Origin: a virus
IMG/VR virus record: IMGVR_UViG_3300048930_000155
Span: 1-64,000 of that record
Reading direction: 5' to 3' (one strand)
DNA length: 64,000 bases
The position numbers were made by a program, and so were the translations under genes. Below, one piece after another: positions 5,408 to 34,411 of this stretch. The notes beneath the pieces are model-generated. The model did no database searches and was not told the origin of the DNA. It was given only the letters and a program-made list of their open reading frames with translations. Numbering within the stretch: the stretch's first letter is position 1; the number at the start of each line of letters is the position of its first letter.

Positions 5408-5953
5408 ACTGGCTTATCCTTTCTTTTGCTTGTTATGTTAGCCACTATATAGCACTATGCTGCTATAGTGTATTAAGTTTATATTAAATCTGCGTTAGGT
5501 CTATTTAAAGCTTTCTGCTTAACTATCAGTTACTTAAGTCTAGGCTAAACTCGCCACTTAAGCTCGTTTTGAATTTAGGGCCTCGACTGCGTAACCTTAA
5601 GCCTAAATTAAGTCTATTCAGCTCTAACTAAAATCAGCTACTTAGCAGAACGGGCCACTAATACGTCTATATAGAATAGATAATCATTATCCATAACATG
5701 TACACATATAAATAGACTGTGTGTAAAGGCTATAGTGAAGACTTAATCATTAGTATAGGGTGTTCTATAGGACATATAGCAAAGTACCGACTATAGGGCG
5801 TATAGAGCGTCTAATAGAGTCTTAAGTCTAGGTGAGTACAGGTGTACTATTCGTTAATCTATTCAAAGCTTTGGATTGAGAGTGAGCGATGAGGTGGAGG
5901 AGTGATGGTTATAGTCACACTCACACCCTCTTCTCCCCCATAAACTCAACTAC
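5408..5953. other. Gene-free region upstream of the left operon
   Basis: No credible gene is seen. The stretch is rich in CTAG and CTATAG. It contains an imperfect inverted repeat at 5443-5470 (CACTATA facing TATAGTG) about 40 bases before the left operon, and the words AAGTCTAGG and TCAACTACTTAG that recur near 7190, 7371 and 7640. A regulatory or replication role is plausible but unproven. Confidence 0.5.
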
Positions 5954-6142
5954 TTAGCCCTGTCTCAATTCCCAAAGCCTATCCCACAATGCCCGCCTAT
6001 AAGCACTGGCCACTTCTATCCACTCCCCTAGAGCCGCCCGCTCTATCCCCTCAGCCCCTCTATAGGCTATAGTCATCGCATTCAGCTCTAATTGAAGCTC
6101 TACCAGCTCCCCCTGTACTGTACTCATGTCTAAACTATCCAT
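5954..6142 (-). CDS. Hypothetical small helical protein, 62 aa
   Basis: The gene starts at 6142 with GGGGG seven bases upstream. The product is almost entirely helical, with leucine and glutamate spacing typical of a short coiled coil (QGELVELQLELNAM) and a second amphipathic helix. It stands alone between gene-free stretches. Function unknown. Confidence 0.6.
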   Translation of the reverse strand: MDSLDMSTVQGELVELQLELNAMTIAYRGAEGIERAALGEWIEVASAYRRALWDRLWELRQG

Positions 6143-6370
6143 AAATCCCCCTTAGTATTGTCTTTCTAGCATTTAGGCCGTGTCTTACGGCTTAAGTATC
6201 AGTTTTAAATCAGTGATATATCGGTGTAAAAATAACACACTATAGACCTATCATTGCCTATAGGATATACTCTAAACTGGGGTAGAGTGTAGCCCGCCCT
6301 TAATAGCCCGCCTGCCCCCTCTACGCGATATCAACTAGTTACGCAATCACTATACGCGACGCCCGACTAG

Positions 6371-6583
6371 TTACTCTTTGGCGTAGTACTCGCCGTCAGG
6401 TCCTTGCTCTAGTTCTCCGCCTTGTGCCAAAGCATCGGCGTAGTCAGCCGCCCCTACCCTAAAGGCTATGGGGTCCACTACTTTGAGCGCATCCCCTTGC
6501 AAGTACTCATACCCGCCTATTTTGACCGGCGGCAGTTCATTTAAGAAACCCCTGTATAATTCGAATTCGTTAACTCTAGTCAT
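6371..6583 (-). CDS. Hypothetical protein, 70 aa
   Basis: ATG 6583 follows AGGGGG. The protein begins MTRVNEFELYRGFLNELPP and ends EQGPDGEYYAKE; it has no recognised domain. It lies in the gene-poor 5.4-7.9 kb region with noncoding spacers on both sides. Confidence 0.6.
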   Translation of the reverse strand: MTRVNEFELYRGFLNELPPVKIGGYEYLQGDALKVVDPIAFRVGAADYADALAQGGELEQGPDGEYYAKE

Positions 6584-6668
6584 TTTAAAACCCCCTATCC
6601 TTAATAGTAATATAGTACTGATTCAGGTCAGGCCTGAAACTCCATGATTAGTCTCATACGTTGCCCCC

Positions 6669-6770
6669 TTACTGTACCGCCACAAAGGCGGCTAATTGAA
6701 TGATTGCGTGTCCGACTGCCCCAAAGGCTAAACTCAGTAGCGCTATTGCAATGATTCCGTTGAATGTCAT
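6669..6770 (-). CDS. Small hydrophobic peptide, 33 aa
   Basis: ATG 6770 has a strong AAGGAG eight bases upstream, and the frame ends at TAA 6669. Apart from its first five residues the peptide is one hydrophobic helix (GIIAIALLSLAFGAVG onward), so it should insert in the membrane. The good ribosome binding site argues for a real gene despite the length. Confidence 0.6.
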   Translation of the reverse strand: MTFNGIIAIALLSLAFGAVGHAIIQLAAFVAVQ

Positions 6771-6797
6771 TTTATTTACTCCTTATAATCTTATAAT

Positions 6798-6818
6798 GCC
6801 CGATTTTTTAGGCCGGGC
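6798..6818 (-). terminator. Possible stem-loop between two small genes
   Basis: GCCCG pairs with CGGGC around an 11-base loop between the genes at 6840 and 6770. No clear T-tract follows on the minus strand, so it may be an attenuator or processing site rather than a terminator. Confidence 0.3.
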
Positions 6819-6839
6819 TAATTAATTTTACGTTAAGAT

Positions 6840-7022
6840 TTAGGCGGCTAACCTCAATACTCCTAGCATGTCGTTAGCTTTGGCCTGCGCTATTTTGCGA
6901 AGTCTGATTAAGTCTTGAACATTGTCTACTAGTCCTGACCGCATGATCTCTACCTCAGTCCCTCTCCACTTAATAAAGAATACAATGTGTTTATGATGGT
7001 ACTTGAACTTGATTGGTTGCAT
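6840..7022 (-). CDS. Hypothetical basic protein, 60 aa
   Basis: The start at 7022 follows AAAGGG. The N-terminal half is basic and aromatic (IKFKYHHKHIVFFIKWRG), the C-terminal half is a helix (LIRLRKIAQAKANDML). It might bind nucleic acid, but no family is recognised. Upstream on the minus strand, TTGGCA and TATAAG at short spacing are a weak promoter candidate. Confidence 0.55.
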   Translation of the reverse strand: MQPIKFKYHHKHIVFFIKWRGTEVEIMRSGLVDNVQDLIRLRKIAQAKANDMLGVLRLAA

Positions 7023-16420: not shown

Positions 16421-16706
16421 AGAGATCAGGCATTTCCAAGAGATAGCTGAGGTGCAATTAGAGCGCCTTAGAGCTATTTCTAGAGATCGTTTACTAACAT
16501 TTGAAGAAACTAAGATCTTTGATTTACTGACTAAAAACCTTCTTCTAAGCGAGAAAGCCTCTGGAGATATAGAAGGTCAGTCAGAAAAGGTAGAGGCCGT
16601 ATCTACTACGGAACTTATTCAAATAGCGCAGGCTGCGCAGGAGTTCTTTGAAGTTAAGAACGAAGTCAAGGAAGACTTAGATGTCAAGAAAACGCCCTCC
16701 AACTAA
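16377..16706 (+). CDS. Candidate small terminase subunit, 109 aa
   Basis: The gene lies directly upstream of and overlaps the large terminase gene by 26 bases, where the small subunit usually is. The protein has a basic N-terminus (MKKKLVKPKQ), a long central helix (RHFQEIAEVQLERLRAISRD) and an acidic C-terminus, a plan seen in small terminases. AAAGGA precedes ATG 16377. The call rests on position and shape, not on a recognised motif. Confidence 0.5.
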   Translation: MKKKLVKPKQELVIEEIRHFQEIAEVQLERLRAISRDRLLTFEETKIFDLLTKNLLLSEKASGDIEGQSEKVEAVSTTELIQIAQAAQEFFEVKNEVKEDLDVKKTPSN

Positions 16707-18150
16707 GGCAGAAGCTATAGACACGCTTTGGCGTATCGGAGAGCTTTCCTGGAAATTGGACTCATGTCAAAAAAAACTATATGAGAAGTTCAAGACATCT
16801 AAGTACAGAAAAGTAGTGTGGAACGCTAGCCGAAGGATCGGCAAAAGCTACTCACTGCTAATAGTGGCGCTGGAGTATGCACTAAAGAACCCTAATACTC
16901 AAATTAAGTATGCTACATTCACAGCGGTAGCCGGCCAGAAAATTATCCTCCCCACCATCCGTAGTATTTTAGAAGACTGTCCAAAAGACATTAAACCAGA
17001 CTATGTCAGGGCTGACAAATGCTTCTACTTTAAGAACGGATCAATAATCCAGATCGAAGGTACTGATGAAGGCAATGCTGAGAAGTTAAGAGGAACTGCC
17101 AGTCACCTAAGCATCCTAGATGAGGCAGGATTCATGGACGATCTCAACTATGTTATAAACGACATCCTCCTGCCGCAAGCACTTACGACCAACGGTAAGC
17201 TATTAATAGCATCAACTCCGCCAAAGAGTCCGGCGCACCCATTTGCAGATCTCGTAAAAGAAACTGAAAAGCACGACGCTTATATAAAGAAGACAATCGT
17301 CGACGCTATGGAAGATATTAAGAACGATCCTCCACACATGAAGTCTAGGCTAAACCCAGACATCGTTAATGAGCTAAAAGAGGCCAGCGGCGGAGAGAAC
17401 TCTACTACATGGAAGCGCGAGTTTCTTTGTCAGCTAGAAATTGACGCTACTAGAGCCGTAATACCTGAGTTTAATGATGATCTGGCATCGAGGGTAATTA
17501 AAACTTGGGTTAGGCCAGCGCATTACGACGCATATACCAGTCTAGACTTAGGCTTTGTAGATTATACTGCAGCTTTATTTGCATACTATGATTTTAGAGA
17601 GAATAAGCTTGTAATAGAAGATGAAATGTGGATGAACGGGCAAGAAGTTACAGTAAAAAATCTAGCTAATAAAGTAAAAGAGAAGGAGGCATCCCTATGG
17701 ATAGACCCCATCTCCAAAGAATCAAAGCCAGCGTACTTAAGAGTATCCGACGACGACCTAATAACACTAAACGACCTCCAAAGACAGCACGGACTCATAT
17801 TTATTCCAACTAGAAAAGATAACCGCGAAGCAGCCATTAACGACGTGCGAATTCGCCTAGCTGACGAGAATATTATCATTAACCCAAAATGCGCGAATCT
17901 AATATACCAGCTTAAATCAGCAACTTGGAGTAAGAACCGCAAGACATTTGAACGAACTGACCAGGGCGGTCACCAGGATTTACTAGCTGCGCTAATTTAC
18001 TTAGTTAGAAATGTACAGTGGCATAAAAATCCATACCCCACTGAAAGATCGCTACAAGCGTTCAATATGTTCGGTAAAAGCGCGGATTACTTGAGTTCTA
18101 CCGCCCAAGCCGTCAAGAGCATGTTCGTTAAAAACAAGATAAACAAATAA
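16681..18150 (+). CDS. terL: Large terminase subunit (ATPase and nuclease)
   Basis: The 489-residue protein has Walker A ASRRIGKS (49-56) and Walker B SILDEAG (144-150), then SLDLGF as the first acidic motif of the RNase H-like nuclease and GGHQDLLAALIYL with the third. It translocates DNA into the prohead using ATP and cuts the concatemer. Length is normal for the family. AAGGAAG precedes ATG 16681. The portal gene follows by 14 bases. Confidence 0.95.
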   Translation: MSRKRPPTKAEAIDTLWRIGELSWKLDSCQKKLYEKFKTSKYRKVVWNASRRIGKSYSLLIVALEYALKNPNTQIKYATFTAVAGQKIILPTIRSILEDCPKDIKPDYVRADKCFYFKNGSIIQIEGTDEGNAEKLRGTASHLSILDEAGFMDDLNYVINDILLPQALTTNGKLLIASTPPKSPAHPFADLVKETEKHDAYIKKTIVDAMEDIKNDPPHMKSRLNPDIVNELKEASGGENSTTWKREFLCQLEIDATRAVIPEFNDDLASRVIKTWVRPAHYDAYTSLDLGFVDYTAALFAYYDFRENKLVIEDEMWMNGQEVTVKNLANKVKEKEASLWIDPISKESKPAYLRVSDDDLITLNDLQRQHGLIFIPTRKDNREAAINDVRIRLADENIIINPKCANLIYQLKSATWSKNRKTFERTDQGGHQDLLAALIYLVRNVQWHKNPYPTERSLQAFNMFGKSADYLSSTAQAVKSMFVKNKINK

Positions 18151-18164: not shown

Positions 18165-20210
18165 ATGGCTAATAAAGACAAATATTTCGCAGCTTTACCC
18201 TCAAAAGAGGCCGTTTCAGAGATCTATCACAAGGCCCAAGATTGGGGCTCGAGCGCATTAGCCAACGAATACGTAGACAAGCTTCGCCGTAGTTGGTCGT
18301 TTTATCACGGTAACTTCACTTCTGGATCAGGAGATCACGGATTGAGCTTTACTGGCGAGCAGAACGAACTTGTACGATTCCCAGTAAACCACTATAGAAA
18401 CATCGCCAGGCACTTGCTAAATATGACTACGGCTAATCGCCCTAGTCTTAAAACACGCGCTATTAATACAGACGTAAGATCGCAGTCTCAAACCATACTA
18501 GCAGATGGACTTTTGGAGTACTACTTCAGAGAAAAGAATTTAGAGTCGTATGTCAGTAAGGCTACTGAATATGCCATCGTATTTGGTGAAGGATATATTC
18601 GTCTCGGCTGGAACGCTACTGCCGGTCAAATGTTTGAGCAGGACGAGAATAGCGGCGAGCGCTTTTACGAGGGTGACCTAGAGTTCACTAACGTATCCCC
18701 ATTAGACGTTATTCGAGACCCATCTAAAGAAGATACTGCCAGCCATGATTGGCTTATCGTCAGATCATATAAGAATAAGTTCGCATTAGCAGCTAAATAT
18801 CCTGAAATCGAAGATCAAATTCTAAGTGCTCCATCTAAAGATGATCTGGGCGAGTTAAAGTCTGGAAGCTTTAATATGGAAAAGACTGATGACGTTCCAG
18901 TGTACGAGTTCTTCCATAACAAAAACGATGCTCTTCCAGATGGTCGCTACATAGTATTCGTAACCCCTGAAGCTATCTTGTATGACGGTCCACTCCCTTA
19001 TAGAGAAACGCCAATATATCGAATTTCTCCTGAGAATATCTTAGGAAGTCCTTTTGGCTATACTGTAATGTTTGACCTTCTACCTATTCAAGAAGCTATC
19101 AACATGTTGTATAGCACTATTATTACTAACCAGAACGCATTTGGAGTACAGAACGTACTTGTACCTAAGGGCGCAGACTTTACATGGACACAGTTAGCTG
19201 GCGGCCTTAACCTAATCGAATATAATGCTCTCAATAATGCTAAGCCAGAAGCTCTTAACTTGACCCAGACTCCCGCTGAAATCTTTGAGATGATTAAGAT
19301 TCTTGAGCAGCAAATGGAGACTATCTCCGGAATTAATAGTGTAACCAGAGGGCAGCCAGAGGCTAGCCTTCGATCTGCTAGCTCGCTAGCCCTTATTCAG
19401 GCGCAAGCTGTTCAATTCTCATCACTTCTTCAGCATTCGTACGTTAAGGCTATTGAGAATATCGGAAATGGCGTAATTCAAACGTTACAAGACTACGCTA
19501 AATACCCTAGAGTAGCGGCTATCGTAGGCAAGTCACAAAGAGCGTATTTAAAAGAATTCTCCTCAAAAGATCTGCTACAAATAGGTAGGGTCGCTGTAGA
19601 AGTCTCTAATGCCTTAGCTAAGACTACTGCAGGACGCGCAGAGATCGCCAATCAACTAATCCAGATGGGGCTAGTAAAGAACGTTGATCAATATTTTACG
19701 GTGCTGAACACCGGTAGATTAGATTCAATGACAGAAGGCGATCAAGCAGAGCTGTTACTAGTTAAATCTGAGAATGAGAAAATGATGGACGGGACTTATG
19801 CTAGGGCCCTTAGCCTAGATAACCACGCACTCCATATTCAAGAGCACAAAGCATTGCTGGCCGACCCCGATCTTAGAAACGATGAGCAGCTAGTAGAAGT
19901 GGTCCTGTCTCACATCCAGGAACATATTGAGCTCCTAAGAAATACCGATCCTGGCGTACTTGCAGTAACTCGTCAGCAAGCGTTGCCGCCCTTACAGCCG
20001 CCCATGCCTCCTCAAGGAGCTCCTGGACCACAAGCACCGCAAGGCCCTACCCAAGAGGCTATGGAAGGCGCTGAGATGATTCCCGAAGCTATGGAAGCTC
20101 AGACTAACTTTGCAGCAGGCCAGGAAATAGCGGCACCACAAATGCCCACTCCACCAGCTCCATTTCAGAATTTACCAACTAACCCAGCTAACACAGATCC
20201 ACAAGGATAA
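18165..20210 (+). CDS. Portal protein, 681 aa
   Basis: Length, position after the large terminase and sequence style fit the P22/T7-type portal ring, the dodecameric channel through which DNA enters and leaves. Recognisable stretches include YHGNFTSGSG (residues 47-56), the motif RFPVNHYRNIARHLLNMTTA and the conserved middle YRISPENILGSPFGY. The last 90 residues are Pro/Gln-rich (PPMPPQGAPGPQAPQGP), a flexible tail likely exposed at the ring's edge. Confidence 0.88.
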   Translation: MANKDKYFAALPSKEAVSEIYHKAQDWGSSALANEYVDKLRRSWSFYHGNFTSGSGDHGLSFTGEQNELVRFPVNHYRNIARHLLNMTTANRPSLKTRAINTDVRSQSQTILADGLLEYYFREKNLESYVSKATEYAIVFGEGYIRLGWNATAGQMFEQDENSGERFYEGDLEFTNVSPLDVIRDPSKEDTASHDWLIVRSYKNKFALAAKYPEIEDQILSAPSKDDLGELKSGSFNMEKTDDVPVYEFFHNKNDALPDGRYIVFVTPEAILYDGPLPYRETPIYRISPENILGSPFGYTVMFDLLPIQEAINMLYSTIITNQNAFGVQNVLVPKGADFTWTQLAGGLNLIEYNALNNAKPEALNLTQTPAEIFEMIKILEQQMETISGINSVTRGQPEASLRSASSLALIQAQAVQFSSLLQHSYVKAIENIGNGVIQTLQDYAKYPRVAAIVGKSQRAYLKEFSSKDLLQIGRVAVEVSNALAKTTAGRAEIANQLIQMGLVKNVDQYFTVLNTGRLDSMTEGDQAELLLVKSENEKMMDGTYARALSLDNHALHIQEHKALLADPDLRNDEQLVEVVLSHIQEHIELLRNTDPGVLAVTRQQALPPLQPPMPPQGAPGPQAPQGPTQEAMEGAEMIPEAMEAQTNFAAGQEIAAPQMPTPPAPFQNLPTNPANTDPQG

Positions 20211-26413: not shown

Positions 26414-27439
26414 ATGTCAGATAACGGCAGTTCTGCCCCCATCAATAGCTCAGACTCAAGCTCTTCAGAAGCGTCTAATACCGATTTAAACGCCCAAGGT
26501 AACGAGTCTATTAATCTTGAAGGTAATCAGTCTAGCGAAGAATCTTCGTCCAATGGCGAGGCTTTAAACGCGTCTAATGAGGCTTCTAGCGAGGGTTCAG
26601 AGCCCAGCAAGAAAGAAGTTAAGCAGGCGGCGGCTAAGGTAGACGCTAAACAGTCTAAAGCCGACCCCGAAAAGTACACAATCAAGGTAGACGGTCAGCT
26701 TTTAGAGCTTAATAAAGAAGAAATGGTCAAGTACGCTCAATTAGGGCGCGCGGGCCAATCTAGAATGGAAGAAGCGGCTAGAATTAAGCAAGAAGCCATT
26801 CAATTAGTACAAATGCTTAGAACCAACCCAGAAGCTGTACTCGCTGACCCCAATATCCTAGGTTCAGAAGATAAGGTTATCGAATTAGCCCAAAAGATCC
26901 TGTCTAGAAAACTCGAAGACGATCAGAAGAGCCCTGAAGTACGTGAAAAAGAACGCCTTCAGCGCGAACTCGAAGACCTCCGTGCACACATGAAGCAAGA
27001 AGAAGAGCGTCGTCAGGCGGCAGAATATGAAAGACTCGTGCAGCAGCAAGAAGCTCAACTGGAAGAGCAGATCACTGAAGCTTTTGAAGCATCTCAGTTG
27101 CCTAAATCTCCCTTTGTTCTTAAGCGTTTAGCTGATGTCATGATCACGGCAGCCGAGAACAATAAGGACATTAGCCCTAAGCAAGCTCTTAATATTATTA
27201 AGAAAGAGATGCAAAGAGATATTCAGCAATATATTGACGTATTGCCCGAAGACGCTCTAGAAGCTTATATTAGCGCTGAAAAGGTTAAAAAGCTCCGAGA
27301 TCGTCAGATAGCTAAGGCTAGAGAGGCGACTAAAGCCGCTGCCCCTAAAGTAGCGGAAGTTAAGGAAGTAGCATCACCTAGTTCTGAGCCGGCTAAGAAG
27401 GCTAAGATCAGTATGCGCGACTGGCTGCGCGGCAAATAA
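26414..27439 (+). CDS. Candidate capsid scaffolding protein, 341 aa
   Basis: The protein precedes the major capsid gene, the usual place of the scaffold. The first 70 residues are Ser/Glu-rich and disordered, a helical core with long coiled coils spans about 120-300 (RLQRELEDLRAHMKQEEERR), and the C-terminus is basic (AKKAKISMRDWLRGK), as in P22 and T7 scaffolds, which bind coat protein through a basic tail. No protease domain is present. Confidence 0.7.
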   Translation: MSDNGSSAPINSSDSSSSEASNTDLNAQGNESINLEGNQSSEESSSNGEALNASNEASSEGSEPSKKEVKQAAAKVDAKQSKADPEKYTIKVDGQLLELNKEEMVKYAQLGRAGQSRMEEAARIKQEAIQLVQMLRTNPEAVLADPNILGSEDKVIELAQKILSRKLEDDQKSPEVREKERLQRELEDLRAHMKQEEERRQAAEYERLVQQQEAQLEEQITEAFEASQLPKSPFVLKRLADVMITAAENNKDISPKQALNIIKKEMQRDIQQYIDVLPEDALEAYISAEKVKKLRDRQIAKAREATKAAAPKVAEVKEVASPSSEPAKKAKISMRDWLRGK

Positions 27440-27443
27440 GCCA

Positions 27444-27466
27444 TAACAAATAGTAATAGTAAAGGA
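27444..27466 (+). promoter_or_regulatory. Late-motif copy before capsid gene
   Basis: TAACAAATAGTAATAGTAAAGG, 150 bases upstream of the capsid start. A hairpin (GCGCTTAG/CTAGGCGC, about 27470-27493) lies in the resulting leader. Confidence 0.6.
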
Positions 27467-27617
27467 TATGCGCTTAGGCTACGTCTAGGCGCGTAACTCT
27501 ATGGACCCAGGATACTTTACTGCTTCTGGCATCCCGTTACGCCGAGACAAGGCTTATCTCAGTTCCTTTTTATTAAACCAACCAATAACTAAAATTAAAT
27601 AAAAGGAAAATAATAAA

Positions 27618-30600
27618 ATGGCAGCAAATACAGTTGCAACACTTAATGGATTTTTTAAAGAACTTTATGCGAATCAAGTAGAAAACTTAGTTCCTGATAA
27701 CGTAGTCCTCATGAAAGAAGTTGACTTCGTTCCCATGGACAAACAAACCGGTAATCTCTAAAAGTTGAAGATGGAGATTGCGGGTAGAAAAAGCCCCCGC
27801 TATATGGTAGAATCCTTTTAGGAACAATACCTTGAAGAATTATAAAGTATATCAAATCCAAGATATAAATGACAAGACGGTCTACGTAGGGCTGACGGGT
27901 CAGCCATTATCTAGACGATTTGCTCAGCACGTTACTAAACGTAAGTGGAATAGGGCTCATTACAAAATAGTCCTTATTCAGGAGCATTTGACGCTGGATC
28001 AGGCAGTTATTTTAGAAGAGATGCTTATATTACAATATAATACTAGAGTAGACGGGTTAAACGTTAGCCCAAAGTCGATTAACGGCTATTCAAATTTACA
28101 CTCCCCTGAAATGAAGGCTAGATGGTCCAAAGACCGCAAAGGCAAGAAAGTTTCAGAAGAGCACGCAGCTAAGAATAGAATTGCAAGACTCGGACATAAA
28201 AATAGTAAAGAGCATCAGGATAAAATAATTAGACCTAAGCCGGTAATGTGTTTAGAAACTGGTAAAGTTTATAAGTCGGCTAGAGAAGCCGCTAGAGATT
28301 TAAATTTACACTATAGCAAAATTAGCTTAGTTTGTAATGGACTAAGAATTAGTACCGGCGGATATCACTTTAAATTCGTATAAAAATCGGGATGTATCGG
28401 TGAAGGCCTTATAAAAGGTTAATACCGAGGGGAATTGGACCTAACGAATCCAAAACTTCGTAACGCATACTCAGTGAACCTCGAAAGAGAATATAATCTG
28501 GGCAAGAGCTTCCGACACTTAAATGTGAAAATGTATGCTGACCTTATAGGTAACTATAAGATGTTAGAGATAAAAAACTCTAATGATAACAATAAGATCA
28601 TCAACCAGTAATTTTGGGTTAATTTGGCCCAAGTAAAATCTTCTCTGATTGACTTGAACATCCTGAGAAACAGGGCAACAAGGGGCAAGCGAAAGCAGCC
28701 TGAGAGACTAAGTGAGAAGACCCGAGAGGGATGCGATAGTCCGAACTACCGACATAAATAAAACGGTAGACCTTAGCAGAAATGTCTAAGGACTCTAGAA
28801 ATAGAGGTTAACAGAATGCACGAACACGGGTTAAAGCTTTAAGATAGCCCGGTAGACTTAGTAATAAGTTTACGAGAATTGAGGAAAAAACCTGGAAGAC
28901 TAAAGTCTAATAAGGTATAATAAAAGTATGAAACGTTTTGGATCAATATATAAAATTACCAGAATAAGCGATGGAAAAGCTTATGTAGGTAAGACTACGA
29001 GAGATTCGGTAATGGATCGATTTAATGATCATTACTGGAAAACTTCGTCTAAAATGTATATTGATATGGCTCTTCGTAAGTATGGAAGAGGCGCATTTAA
29101 GGTTGAAGAACTTTTTATAGCGTTTAGCGAGCAATCATTGAACGAGGCAGAATACTTGTTAGTGAAAGCGTATAATACTCTGAGCCCAGATGGTTTTAAT
29201 CTAAAGGACGGCGGCCACGGCGGAACAAAGCACACGCCACTAGCTCGAAAAAGAATATCGGACGGAATAAAAAGGTCTGCTAAAATTTTCAAGCCCGGAT
29301 TTAATCGTCCACACACTGAACAAACAAAGCAGCAAATATCAAGAAAATTCAGTCAAGAGAAGATAGTAGCGATATGCCTAAAAACCGGAGCTATTAAGAT
29401 TTATGACATGTTAATGGATGTCAAAAATGACGGATTTCACAAGAGCAATGTTGTTCAGATATGTAAGAAACGAAGCGCACGCCAAATGCACAAGGCGCAT
29501 ACTTTTATGTACTATTCAGACTATGTTAATCAGAACGGAAGTGTAGATATTAAAATGTCTATACACGTGCAACGCATAGGTATTGATCCTAGCTTTATTA
29601 GCTAGACTATAACATACCCACGAGTCCTCAACCCCTCTCGGGAGGGTGAAAAGATATGCTGACCTTATAGGAAACTATAAGAACTAAGGGATAAAAAGCC
29701 TTTAGGGTAACACATGTATCTTACGGAGGCTCCGCTGGAACAGCGTTTAACTTGAACGACGCTATTCCCGGAACAGTTCGCGACGCTACAATCCAAGGAT
29801 ATGAGTTCCTTCTGCGATCTCAAATTGCTTTGTCTGTAGCTACACGTTCTGCTTCTAGCAAAGCAGCTTTCGAGCGCGGCACGAAATTCATCGTAGCTAA
29901 CATGGTTCGATCTTTCGCTAAGCGATTAGAAATCGTCATGTTCTACGGTCAAAAAGAACTCGCTAAAGCTGACGACGCTATGACCGGTTCAGTACTTGAG
30001 ATTTCTCAAGCTGACTGGGCTCCTGGTATCTGGGTTGGCGCTGAGAACGCAGTAATCGAAATCTACTCTGCTGATCTTTTGACCCTTCGCGGCGAAAGAA
30101 CAATCACTGGAGTTAATTTGGAAGACCGCACCCTCACGCTGAGCTCTAACTTGGCCACAGTTGTAGCTACCGACAGGATCTTCTTCAAAGGTTCTATGGG
30201 TAACGAATTCAAAGGTCTCCACGCTATCATGACTGAGACTTCTTCTTTGTTCGGCATTAACCCTTCTCAGTACAGCTTGTTCAAAGCTACTGAATATGAT
30301 GCTGGCGGAGCTGACCTCTCTTTCGCTAAAATTCAACAAGCTATCGCTCGTGGCGTTGAAAAAGGCCTTGACGAAGACGTTCTTTGCTTGGTTAACCCCA
30401 AGACTTGGGCTAAGCTCATGACAGACCAAGCTGCTCTCCGTAAATTCGACTCTTCTTACAGTGTTGAAAAATCAGAGAACGGCGCTCAGTCTATCAAGTT
30501 CTACGCTCAGAACGGTGGAGTTGAAATCAGACCTTCTACTTACGTAAAAGAGTCTCTCGCTTTCATCTTGCCCGTAGCTGAATTGATGCGCGTTGGATCT

Positions 30601-30768
30601 ACCGACATTACCTTCAAGCAACCTCTGGACCAGACCAACGGTGGAGATGCGTTCTTCTTAGCTATACCGAACGTCGCGGGCTTCGAAATCAGAGCCTATT
30701 CGGATCAAGCATTGTTTGTCGCTTGCCCCGGTAAACTGATTCTCATTCATAACATCATCAATTCTTAA
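27618..30768 (+). CDS. Major capsid protein, split by two group I introns
   Basis: Three exons: 27618-27759, 28597-28620 and 29708-30768. Together they make 1227 bases, an uninterrupted 408-residue protein plus stop. Exon 1 starts MAANTVATLNGFFKELY. The junctions read GNL-YHQPVILG-LTHVSYGGS, matching the order I recall in related HK97-fold coat proteins (YHQPVILGLEHG..GGSAG). The spliced protein forms the icosahedral head. Without splicing, exon 1 ends at TAA after 47 codons. A TTG at 29752 gives a misleading shorter frame. AAAGGA precedes the start; a terminator follows. Confidence 0.9.
27760..28596 (+). ncRNA. Group I intron 1 in the capsid gene
   Basis: The 837-base intron starts after a U and ends in G. 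The exon end AATCTCT pairs with internal guide GGAGATT at 27773-27779, giving the standard terminal U-G wobble at the splice site, and GTTG nearby can pair with the sequence TAAC type expected for P10. A GCGGG/CCCGC hairpin follows. The catalytic-core pairings are less clear than in intron 2. It hosts a GIY-YIG gene. Confidence 0.8.
27832..28383 (+). CDS. GIY-YIG homing endonuclease in intron 1, 183 aa
   Basis: The N-terminal GIY-YIG domain has VYQIQD and VYVGLTGQ with the catalytic Arg in SRRFAQH and Glu in ILEEMLI. A middle NUMOD3-like stretch (SEEHAAKNRIARLGHK) and a C-terminal NUMOD1-type helix-turn-helix (SAREAARDLNL) bind DNA. It starts with TTG after AGGA. It presumably cuts the intronless capsid gene, spreading intron 1. 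Confidence 0.88.
   Translation: MKNYKVYQIQDINDKTVYVGLTGQPLSRRFAQHVTKRKWNRAHYKIVLIQEHLTLDQAVILEEMLILQYNTRVDGLNVSPKSINGYSNLHSPEMKARWSKDRKGKKVSEEHAAKNRIARLGHKNSKEHQDKIIRPKPVMCLETGKVYKSAREAARDLNLHYSKISLVCNGLRISTGGYHFKFV
28597..28620 (+). other. 24-base mini-exon of the capsid gene
   Basis: This exon (ATCATCAACCAGTAATTTTG plus GGTT) supplies codons for YHQPVILG with the last base of exon 1 and the first two of exon 3. The flanking intron ends (G before, U at the end) suit group I splicing, and the encoded residues fill the exact gap between exons 1 and 3. Confidence 0.82.
28621..29707 (+). ncRNA. Group I intron 2 in the capsid gene
   Basis: The 1087-base intron has the exon end TTGGGTT paired with GGCCCAA (28625-28631). 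A clear P7 is formed by GACTA (28706-28710) and TAGTC (28737-28741) within typical R and S blocks (GAGACTAAG, GATAGTCC). Its 3' part (29656-29681) matches 28535-28560 of intron 1 at 25 of 26 bases. It hosts a second GIY-YIG gene. Confidence 0.87.
28928..29605 (+). CDS. GIY-YIG homing endonuclease in intron 2, 225 aa
   Basis: SIYKITR and AYVGKTTRDS form the GIY-YIG motif, with Arg in VMDRFNDHY and Glu in LNEAEYLLVKAYN. GGHGGTKHTPLARKRISDG and PHTEQTKQQISRKF are NUMOD3-like DNA-binding stretches. It differs from the intron 1 enzyme over most of its length, so the two introns were probably colonised separately. No strong ribosome binding site is seen. Confidence 0.88.
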   Translation: MKRFGSIYKITRISDGKAYVGKTTRDSVMDRFNDHYWKTSSKMYIDMALRKYGRGAFKVEELFIAFSEQSLNEAEYLLVKAYNTLSPDGFNLKDGGHGGTKHTPLARKRISDGIKRSAKIFKPGFNRPHTEQTKQQISRKFSQEKIVAICLKTGAIKIYDMLMDVKNDGFHKSNVVQICKKRSARQMHKAHTFMYYSDYVNQNGSVDIKMSIHVQRIGIDPSFIS

Positions 30769-30795
30769 ATAATTTTAAGTAATTAGCGATACTAA

Positions 30796-30828
30796 CCCTC
30801 GGACCTAGAAATAGGCCGGGGGTTTTTT
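30796..30828 (+). terminator. Intrinsic terminator after capsid gene
   Basis: CCCTCGG-A-CCTA pairs with TAGGCCGGGGG (11 pairs with one bulged A, GAAA loop), followed by six T. It lies 28 bases after the capsid stop and should end most capsid transcripts. Confidence 0.9.
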
Positions 30829-30898
30829 ATTGCCTAAAATAACTAAGAGTAGTTTGTCAGAATAAGCGCACTAGTATTATAGAATCAAACTTATTTAG

Positions 30899-30927
30899 TT
30901 GACTATGTGTACTAAGTGTGATATGTT
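30899..30927 (+). promoter_or_regulatory. Sigma70-like promoter for 30935
   Basis: TTGACT (30899-30904), 17-base spacer, TATGTT (30922-30927), then seven bases to ATG 30935. The -35 is identical to that of the promoter at 15128. Confidence 0.65.
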
Positions 30928-30934
30928 TATATAC

Positions 30935-32530
30935 ATGACTTTAGATAATTATGATAAACTTCCTTACGGCATAGTTTATGTTCATATTAATAAGCATAAC
31001 GGCAAGGCATATGTAGGACAAACTAGACAAGACCCGGCTAGAAGGTTCAAAAACGAAAGTAACGGCATTAGCAGCTATGCATCTTGTAAAGCTTTTTACA
31101 GGGCTCTGAAGAAGTATTCCTGGGACGGATTTGAAACGAGTATACTAGCTTCAGCTAAAACCCAAATCGATCTAAATTGGCTAGAGGAGTACTTTATTAA
31201 CTACTACTCTGCGCTTCTTCCTAATGGGTATAACTCTGTTCTTCAGACCCCAGAAAGAGTCATATTCACTCAAGAAGTAAGGGATAAGATATCTGCAGCT
31301 AATAAGAGACCTACCGGTAAGCCAGCTTGGAACGCGTTTCGCATAGAAATGGTAGAAGGGAGGCCTCATAAAAAGTGTGGCCTGTGTAAAAGACTTCTAC
31401 CAACATCCAATTTCTCTGAAATACGAAAACGAAGGGGCGTAGTGCTAGAGCAGCCTAAATTAAATCCAAGATGCAGAGAATGCAATAATGCATATAGCTC
31501 TAAGTATGTAAAATATACCAGACTTACTCAAGAGGAGAAAAGAACTAGACTTGATGCTAAGAATGCTCGTATATCTGCAACCATATCTGCAAAATTCAAA
31601 AAAGATCCCGAATACAAGAAAAAATTGAGGGACGCTATTAAAAAGTCTCTTGTAGCAGTTCCAGTAGATTCTGATAAAACTACTTTAGTGTTCGACGCTG
31701 GCATAGAAGCCACTGCTGCTGGGTATCAAAATACGCCTATTAAAAAGTCTATCGATTCAGGTAAACCCTATAAGGGATACGTATGGAAAAGAATGCCGGA
31801 CCTTGAGCAAGACATGGCATCGGCTCTGGGCGTTAGTGGAATAAATGTCTTAAAGTCTGTGGCCATAAGTGACTACAAACTGGACCTAAAAGACCCCCAG
31901 TTACGCGGTAAGATGGTCATATGGAAGCACGAATGGCTAAATCGACGCAAGCAAGTCCTAAACTTCCTAAAACCTAAACTAGGCCTCAGTACTACTATTG
32001 GAGCGCGTAAGTGTGAGTTTAGGCCAGTAGACTGGACCACAGCTAGAGATTTCTGCGAAGCAAATCACATACAAGGGGCGCCGCAACACTCTAAGCTATC
32101 TTTAGGAGCTTTTTACAATAACGAACTAGTCGGTTTAGCCACATTCTCTAGTCATCATAGAAATTCAAACGAGATCGTGCTGTCTCGACTGTGTTTTAAG
32201 GATGACATATCGGTGGCCGGGGCACTATCTAAATTCTCTAAAATAGCCACTAAGCACTTTAACACAGCTATCTATACATGGGTCCACAAAACACTGTCTG
32301 ACGGCCAATCTTACGTTAAAGCCGGCTGGGAAGTGGTAAACGTATTAGCCCCAGACTATTTTTATGTGTCCAGCCAGGATGGTTCAGTAGTCTCCAAGCA
32401 ATCTCGTCAAAAGCGCCTAGTGAACACCCCGGCCGGAATGACCGAACTGGAGCACGCCACAAAAGATGGTTTTAAGCGCGTCTATGACTGCGGAAAGATT
32501 AAATTAGTTTACAGCGGCAACAAATATTAG
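30935..32530 (+). CDS. GIY-YIG nuclease fused to Mom/GNAT-like domain, 531 aa
   Basis: The N-terminal GIY-YIG domain (IVYVHIN, AYVGQTRQDPARRF, catalytic Glu in LEEYF) is followed by a zinc-knuckle-like CGLCKRLLP..CRECN region, a NUMOD-like part, and a C-terminal domain of about 180 residues (CEANHIQGAP, LVGLATFSS, LSRLCFKDD, YVKAGWEVV) that resembles GNAT-type domains attached to large phage homing nucleases. ATG 30935 is chosen over upstream codons because of the promoter. It is free-standing, just after the capsid terminator, probably a homing element of the capsid locus. Confidence 0.7.
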   Translation: MTLDNYDKLPYGIVYVHINKHNGKAYVGQTRQDPARRFKNESNGISSYASCKAFYRALKKYSWDGFETSILASAKTQIDLNWLEEYFINYYSALLPNGYNSVLQTPERVIFTQEVRDKISAANKRPTGKPAWNAFRIEMVEGRPHKKCGLCKRLLPTSNFSEIRKRRGVVLEQPKLNPRCRECNNAYSSKYVKYTRLTQEEKRTRLDAKNARISATISAKFKKDPEYKKKLRDAIKKSLVAVPVDSDKTTLVFDAGIEATAAGYQNTPIKKSIDSGKPYKGYVWKRMPDLEQDMASALGVSGINVLKSVAISDYKLDLKDPQLRGKMVIWKHEWLNRRKQVLNFLKPKLGLSTTIGARKCEFRPVDWTTARDFCEANHIQGAPQHSKLSLGAFYNNELVGLATFSSHHRNSNEIVLSRLCFKDDISVAGALSKFSKIATKHFNTAIYTWVHKTLSDGQSYVKAGWEVVNVLAPDYFYVSSQDGSVVSKQSRQKRLVNTPAGMTELEHATKDGFKRVYDCGKIKLVYSGNKY

Positions 32531-33748: not shown

Positions 33749-34411
33749 ATGCAAATATATCAAATACTAAATACAGTTAATAATAAGTGTTATATAGGTA
33801 AGACTTATAAGTGCTTTAAGTATAGATACGGAAAATGCTGGGCTACGGCCACAACAAACGTAGCGCTAAAGCGTGCAGCTGCGAAGTATGGTATAGACAA
33901 TTTTAAAGTCGTAATCTTATTTAATATGTACTCAAATGACCATAGCTTACTACAGGAACTAGAAAAATATTACATAGCAAAGTATAGAAGTAATTTACAA
34001 GAATTTGGGTACAATATGACCTCGGGCGGGGACGGTAGTGTTCAATTTAATGAAGAAAGCAGAAAAAAATTATCGCAAAGTAAAAAAGGTAAAAAGCCTG
34101 CCCACCTGCACACTCCGGCCATGGTGGCTAAAAGAATTGCGGCATGTCGAGCAGCTTGTTTAGGTAAGAAAATGCCAGAAGAACAGGTCAAAAAAATGTC
34201 CGAAAAAAAGAAATTTGTCTTTACGTTTGAGAAAAATGGAAACAAAACTTCTTTTCTCGGACTAAGCAGCGCAGCAAGAGCATATGGTATAAGTTTAAGA
34301 ACACTAGGGCGCTGTATGAATGATAAGTCCGCCTCAAATAACAAAAAAGATAGAGTAGTATTTATCTCAAAACATAAACAACAATTTCCGGAAAATGAAG
34401 GAAACACATAA
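33749..34411 (+). CDS. Free-standing GIY-YIG endonuclease, 220 aa
   Basis: IYQILNTV and CYIGKTYK define the GIY-YIG motif, with Arg in FKYRYGK and Glu in LLQELEKYYI. NUMOD3-like repeats (NEESRKKLSQSKKGKK, PAMVAKRIAACRAACLGKK) and a C-terminal helix-turn-helix (SSAARAYGISLRTLGR) follow. It sits between two fibre genes with no sign of an intron, so it is a free-standing homing gene or a general nuclease. Confidence 0.88.
   Translation: MQIYQILNTVNNKCYIGKTYKCFKYRYGKCWATATTNVALKRAAAKYGIDNFKVVILFNMYSNDHSLLQELEKYYIAKYRSNLQEFGYNMTSGGDGSVQFNEESRKKLSQSKKGKKPAHLHTPAMVAKRIAACRAACLGKKMPEEQVKKMSEKKKFVFTFEKNGNKTSFLGLSSAARAYGISLRTLGRCMNDKSASNNKKDRVVFISKHKQQFPENEGNT

Follow-up and report, generated by a model that had tools for sequence, protein, structure and literature searches.

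Group I introns in capsid genes, and micro-exons flanked by introns, are already known, and the closest described systems help to place the locus reported here, the major capsid gene at positions 27618-30768 of a 64,000-nucleotide (nt) stretch of viral DNA (the window, positions 1-64,000 of record IMGVR_UViG_3300048930_000155, a metagenomic contig of 81.7 kb in full). In phages of the Bastillevirinae, group I introns come with GIY-YIG, HNH or LAGLIDADG endonucleases (PMC11878797). That report describes, for Bastillevirinae or Twort genes, the same ribozyme core, the U at the 5' splice site, the G at the 3' end, endonuclease open reading frames (ORFs) and several introns per gene that are found in the window, and also a small exon and exon skipping, to be compared with the micro-exons described below; there the introns lie in DNA polymerase, terminase, thymidylate synthase and ribonucleotide reductase genes, whereas the window has three within 36 nt of a capsid gene, and Rfam RF00028 misses them (PMC11878797). 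In mycobacteriophage LittleE it is the major capsid gene that is interrupted, by a probable group I intron whose splicing was verified by reverse transcription PCR and N-terminal sequencing, so that splicing of a capsid intron can be efficient enough in a phage; that gene has a single intron and no micro-exon (PMC3706429).

More heavily interrupted capsid genes have also been reported. In crAss-like Zeta and Delta phages, group I introns occur in the capsid gene, one gene being in five fragments; the passages compared do not describe splice sites or micro-exons (PMC7886860). They resemble the window in that introns of L146 and L149 (L numbers designate the loci compared with the window) belong to the ribozyme family of window introns 1 and 3, and differ in having another capsid family. 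The capsid gene of Faustovirus E12 has thirteen exons of 13-527 bp and five group I introns, two of them with GIY-YIG ORFs, but its capsid is unrelated, this being a giant virus of eukaryotes, and seven of its introns are spliceosome-like (PMC6247863). Finally, placozoan mitochondrial cox1 contains a one-base micro-exon between two group I introns, supported by RNA-seq; it is an animal organelle gene, and it shows that splicing is possible even when the exon flanked by two group I introns is very short (PMC5436844). Full-text literature searches found no description of a phage gene with group I introns so tightly packed as in the window, nor of a clade in which so many introns share one stretch of the capsid gene.

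Exon organization of the capsid gene

The major capsid gene of the window very probably consists of four exons (142, 23, 13 and 1,052 nt) and three group I introns, which belong to two ribozyme families. Its exons are the following.

27618..27759, plus strand: exon 1, 142 nt, codons 1-47 and base 1 of codon 48; intronless relatives align with it at their N-terminus, and it is in frame with exon 2
28597..28619, plus strand: exon 2, a micro-exon of 23 nt that encodes YHQPVILG together with the last T of exon 1
28819..28831, plus strand: exon 3, a micro-exon of 13 nt, CACGAACACGGGT, that encodes HEHGL together with the first two bases of exon 4
29717..30768, plus strand: exon 4, 1,052 nt, capsid residues 60-409 and the stop codon, matched to relatives by tblastn

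The capsid identity of the gene, already recognized in the original prediction made from the letters of the window, was confirmed: its product belongs to PHROG 14242, major head protein (E=5e-16), and has relatives at 26-70% identity in phages and viral contigs, collected from the best 80 matches per scan. An Alphafold2 model of the intronless relative L002, which is 70% identical to the window capsid, has a predicted local distance difference test score (pLDDT) of 84.6 and resembles phage capsids (7f38, E=1e-10; HK97 2ft1, E=6e-8). The window capsid is a predicted HK97-fold major capsid protein, the fold coming from this model and the window protein being assigned by sequence family.

Exon 1 is open for 47 codons and then runs into a TAA, as had been noted, and translation of unspliced RNA would stop at codon 48. 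Once joined, the four exons give a product of 409 amino acids (aa) which reads GNLYHQPVILGHEHGLSYGG across the junctions and shows no gap against its relatives in the interrupted stretch. Both micro-exons were ranked with alignment columns taken from 43 intronless capsids: for its own columns, YHQPVILG (28597-28619) comes top of the 31,756 stop-free 23-mers of the window, and HEHGL (28819-28831) top of 48,805 stop-free 13-mers. A mini-exon for YHQPVILG had been proposed before and is indeed real, although it measures 23 nt (28597-28619) instead of 24; its residues correspond to strand 52-60 of the L002 model. The end of exon 3 is supported by L012, where GAACACGGGT followed by TAAA forms an identical 5' splice site. 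In spliced RNA the predicted order around the micro-exons is GGGT, then CACGAACACGGGT, then TATCTTACGG. A three-intron join with boundaries one base off, whose protein reads ...ILGARTRVSYGG, was replaced by the gapless four-exon join.

Ribozyme cores and splice sites

We built two covariance models, both leaving the window out. R1 comprises the cores of 44 compact members of the intron 2 family, and R2, restricted to the 3' half, comprises 14 sequences, among them the introns of L007 and L012 that occupy the same sites as introns 1 and 3 of the window. The introns and their pairings (lengths in base pairs, bp) are listed here.

27760..28596, plus strand: intron 1, group I, 837 nt, ending TAACAATAAG; R2 match; L007 has a homologue at this codon
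27753..27759 (AATCTCT) with 27773..27779 (GGAGATT), plus strand: P1 of intron 1, 9 bp
28465..28469 (GCATA) with 28534..28538 (TATGC), plus strand: P7 of intron 1
28620..28818, plus strand: intron 2, compact group I without ORF, 199 nt, ending TTAACAGAATG; R1 match; same-site intron in L300
TTTGGGT with 28627..28633 (GCCCAAG), plus strand: P1 of intron 2, 7 bp
28639..28645 with 28714..28720, plus strand: P3 of intron 2
28706..28710 with 28737..28741, plus strand: P7 of intron 2
28832..29716, plus strand: intron 3, group I, 885 nt, ending GGGTAACACATG; R2 match; same-site intron in L012
28827..28831 (CGGGT) with 28847..28851 (GCCCG), plus strand: P1 of intron 3, 5 bp
29574..29578 (GCATA) with 29655..29659 (TATGC), plus strand: P7 of intron 3

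Across the 44 members of the R1 family, numerous compensatory changes accompany P3, P4, P5, P6, P8 and P9, and P7 forms a pseudoknot. In their alignment 97.8% of the cells are paired, compared with near 40% in slid controls, and 251 cells are changed on both sides vs 71 in shuffles. Their P7 (GACUA/UAGUC) shows A-U to G-C covariation in nine of the 44, and all 44 aligned members carry the tail GTAACA-n-G, of UAACA type, shortly before the 3' splice site. R1 matches positions 28636-28746 (E=2.1e-25), which is its sole match in the window and in the 81.7-kb record, and the P7 of intron 2 that had been pointed out earlier proved real and lies inside this match. R2 matches 28462-28591 (E=2.6e-26) and 29571-29712 (E=5.6e-25) and nothing else in the record, both matches stopping 4-5 bases short of the terminal G of introns 1 and 3; its family has 81 double-changed cells vs 21 in shuffles, and its P7 (GCAUA/UAUGC) changes from A-U to G-C in two of 14.

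All three introns end in G (28596, 28818 and 29716), 4-5 nt past a conserved TAACA, and all three have a P1 with a U.G at the splice site, of 9, 7 and 5 bp respectively. The P1 proposed earlier for the first 5' splice site (AATCTCT/GGAGATT) held up, its length being matched in 0.2% of shuffles. Across the intron 2 family, a P1 of at least 6 bp with U.G is found in 46 of 54 members vs 14 of 54 after shuffling. A motif of 17 bases common to intron 2 and the L004 intron occurs in at least 120 viral contigs, and the 3' half of the intron 1/3 family is also present in terminase, DNA polymerase, helicase and crAss-like capsid introns of other phages.

Several observations weigh against this organization. 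In shuffled intron heads, a P1 of the observed length arises in 18% of cases for intron 2 and 12% for intron 3. The R2 model spans P7, a P7.1-like pairing, P8, P9 and P9.1 of introns 1 and 3, the P3-P6 half lying outside it. Rfam RF00028 matches none of the three introns, neither over the whole window nor over 27600-29800 with loose thresholds. Moreover, splicing at this locus is read from the DNA letters themselves, and L001, the only near-identical contig and identical to the window over 27300-31000, is a second assembly, which confirms the assembly only and brings no independent evolutionary support. With regard to RF00028, at E up to 10 it gave no match on the 81.7-kb record or on three other records; it reports no group I intron for L004, L006 and L007, though exon alignment and covariation make the introns of these loci clear. 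This model appears to be insensitive to both intron families, because it is silent on L004, whose intron is clear from the exons. In the covariance-model search, suggested as a check in the original prediction, R1 and R2 together matched all three introns and RF00028 none. There is a practical gap here, as the Rfam group I model misses the introns and gene callers would give a capsid without its first 71 residues; the truncated capsid starting at TTG 29752, which had been anticipated, is exactly the ORF that a simple ORF list gives. An IStron element, an idea that came from Clostridioides phage matches, was unsupported, no transposase ORF being seen in the introns.

Competing interpretations and a proposed mechanism

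The original prediction had the type of feature right, that is, a capsid gene with N-terminal codons on a mini-exon between group I introns, but not the number of introns nor one boundary. It placed two group I introns around one 24-nt exon, the second intron being 28621-29707 and the last exon beginning TAACACATGTATC. The three-piece join of 1,227 nt is in frame, with 409 codons including the stop and no internal stops (408 aa); a U closes the upstream exon and a G the intron. However, its product is one residue short compared with every relative, the gap falling just after the mini-exon (ILG-LTH-VSYGG vs VLGSEHGMTYGG in the intronless L002, L003, L005 and L015), and the four-exon protein outscores it by 13 to 25 BLOSUM units against all five relatives and by 11 bits on a profile of the five. 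The second intron so defined would hold two complete catalytic cores of different families; the interval is instead read as an intron (28620-28818), an exon (28819-28831) and another intron (28832-29716), which makes three introns and two micro-exons of 23 and 13 nt. In agreement, the intron 2 family ends GTAACA-n-G, which is satisfied at 28818, and the TAACA that would become exonic is part of the conserved intron tail. TAACACATG, with which the last exon was formerly taken to begin, is this conserved tail in intron 3. L012 and L300 use the sites of intron 3 and intron 2 separately. Moving the 3' site of the two-intron join by three bases was rejected, as the intron would end in A. Altogether, we consider a gene with only two introns very improbable.

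We also give hardly any credence to a decaying pseudogene or a mosaic assembly, with virions using another capsid gene. The contig is metagenomic, its ends are unproven as complete and the gene is heavily interrupted, yet all exons are open and in frame once spliced, the 81.7-kb record contains no second capsid locus, 27618-30768 being the sole copy, the second assembly is identical across the region, and relatives retain open frames despite differing intron sets. Alternative splicing might add a second form to the full product: skipping exons 2 and 3 together would join the 142-nt exon to the 1,052-nt exon and yield a 397-aa capsid without YHQPVILGHEHG. Double skipping preserves the frame (23 + 13 = 36 nt), and Twort orf142 and phage SIOphi are reported cases in which exons between group I introns are skipped (PMC11878797). 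Skipping either exon singly shifts the frame, and the residues lost by double skipping are conserved in the aligned relatives and, in the L002 model, belong to a core strand (52-60). The skipped product is thus unlikely to be a normal capsid, because a conserved segment including that strand would be deleted, and we see the production of both forms as rather improbable.

For the four-exon gene, each intron would fold around its own core, guanosine would attack just past the final U of the upstream exon, and the exons would be ligated at the terminal G, presumably in the cell and perhaps without help from proteins. The substrate would be the late transcript, in which the 409-aa frame would be complete only after removal of all three introns, and intron stop codons would end translation of unspliced RNA. 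Splicing of all three should be needed for capsid production, because the unspliced message has a TAA at codon 48 and the record has no second capsid gene. If this splicing is real, a tailed phage depends on three ribozymes in one 36-nt stretch for its most abundant protein, and to our knowledge, in a comparison that is not exhaustive, the 13-nt exon would rank with the smallest phage exons flanked by group I introns.

Related capsid genes and homing endonucleases

The original prediction mentioned neither introns at the same sites in relatives nor endonuclease genes, and both are present. We mapped 19 introns in 11 capsid genes, at 13 distinct positions. Ten positions, holding 16 of the 19 introns, span 58 nt (coding positions 135-192), and the remaining three fall in a 10-nt span near codons 13-16. 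Of the 103 distinct capsid loci collected, about 93 lack introns in this stretch, L004 and L007 having been reclassified as intron-bearing by direct reading; the roughly 10% that bear introns is a biased frequency, several such loci having been found via intron motifs. The empty site is seen in L002 (70% identical), L155 (62%) and about 90 others. Spliced by the same rules as the window, the first six relatives listed here give capsids without gaps in the interrupted stretch (exon lengths in nt); the other four carry one intron each.

L006: exons 57/127/11/15/1074, four introns
L007: exons 145/13/1123
L012: exons 53/140/1082
L004: exons 158/1057
L136: exons 156/1107
L014: exons 53/88/663, reaching the contig end
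L224, L225 and L231: one intron each
L300: one intron, on a contig binned with a beta-proteobacterial metagenome-assembled genome

The site of window intron 1 is also occupied in L007, and in L224 by an intron of the other ribozyme family; that of intron 2 is occupied in L300 (ATTTTGGGT|TAAAATCTAGGCCCAA and ATAG|CTAGAACACGG), and that of intron 3 in L012 (GAACACGGGT|TAAA and AAATG|TCTCATACGG). P1 is weak or was not found in L231, the second intron of L007 and the third and fourth introns of L006, so that the precise splice junctions of these introns depend on protein alignment and the terminal G. The fourth intron of L006 is matched by R2 (9.7e-18) and, as its P1 is unclear, the 15-nt exon of this gene is less certain than the 11-nt one. 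The clade constitutes a natural series, with about 93 empty alleles together with single, double, triple and quadruple intron alleles at nearly the same codons, which allows asking in what way intron positions are set by the specificity of the endonuclease, the identity of the ribozyme and the conservation of the target.

Two of the window introns contain putative endonuclease genes.

27832..28383, plus strand: GIY-YIG homing endonuclease ORF in intron 1, 183 aa with a NUMOD-like C-terminus; Pfam GIY-YIG E=2e-7, I-HmuI_NUMOD-like E=1.5e-9
28928..29605, plus strand: GIY-YIG homing endonuclease ORF in intron 3, 225 aa; Pfam GIY-YIG E=3e-6, PHROG 314 homing endonuclease E=6e-31

The 3' end of the second ORF overlaps the ribozyme core. 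Each of introns 1 and 3 combines such an ORF with an intronless allele at the same site in relatives, and by this predicted organization they are mobile (homing) introns. The intron 1 endonuclease shares 73% identity with that at the same site in L007, compared with about 45% between the two capsids, which fits intron spread between phages; the intron 3 endonuclease is 56% identical to its same-site counterpart in L012. Relatives of the intron 1 endonuclease lie at codons 48 and 49 of L224, L136 and L225 (pairwise identity 46-59%), in introns whose cores belong to the other ribozyme family than intron 1. This suggests that the endonuclease lineage, and not the ribozyme, determines the insertion site, because related endonucleases at codons 48-49 ride on two ribozyme families. 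The target codons of the introns rank among the conserved ones of the capsid protein.

The introns were probably acquired and passed on by homing, in which intronless capsid alleles would be cut at codons of high conservation, most likely in co-infected cells. Repeated arrivals at one short stretch within this phage group would have led to stacked introns with micro-exons between them. A wider interpretation, which we offer tentatively and with more doubt than confidence, is that codons 45-64 are a battleground of homing elements with overlapping targets. Endonuclease lineages would choose the site and swap ribozymes, each new intron would destroy the targets of its neighbours, and stacking would go on until exons of 11-23 nt remain; incomplete or alternative splicing of the micro-exons might then set the amount of capsid or its in-frame form.

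Other loci contain related arrangements. On the reverse strand of L089 (3614-3899), in another gene, there is a tandem pair of intron-2-family introns, separated by what appears to be an exon of about 39 nt, and close pairs of such introns are also present in L022, L058 and L099 (in the latter, with starts 441 nt apart). At about 1996-2212 of L139 (MW202674.1), an ORF-less intron of the same family interrupts a gene whose two parts are each annotated 'P22 coat protein'. In L146 (MT774392.1, crAss-like) and L149 (PQ006092.1, a gut phage), introns of the intron 1/3 family stand beside or inside annotated major capsid genes. In L224 the intron at the codon of window intron 1 (5563-7021, 1,459 nt) contains two ORFs, of which the one close to the 5' end is GIY-YIG and the one close to the 3' end LAGLIDADG-like. 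Six matches come from bacterial or archaeal genome bins scattered across unrelated phyla, and may be binning errors.

The surroundings of the capsid gene in the window are those of an ordinary tailed-phage head module, with the terminase large subunit (16681-18150) and a P22-like portal (18165-20207) upstream. Just downstream there are two further GIY-YIG ORFs, apparently free-standing (30899-32530 and 33749-34411), and the C-terminal part of the first, a protein of 543 aa initiated at TTG, has additional matches to HNH/homing endonuclease families.

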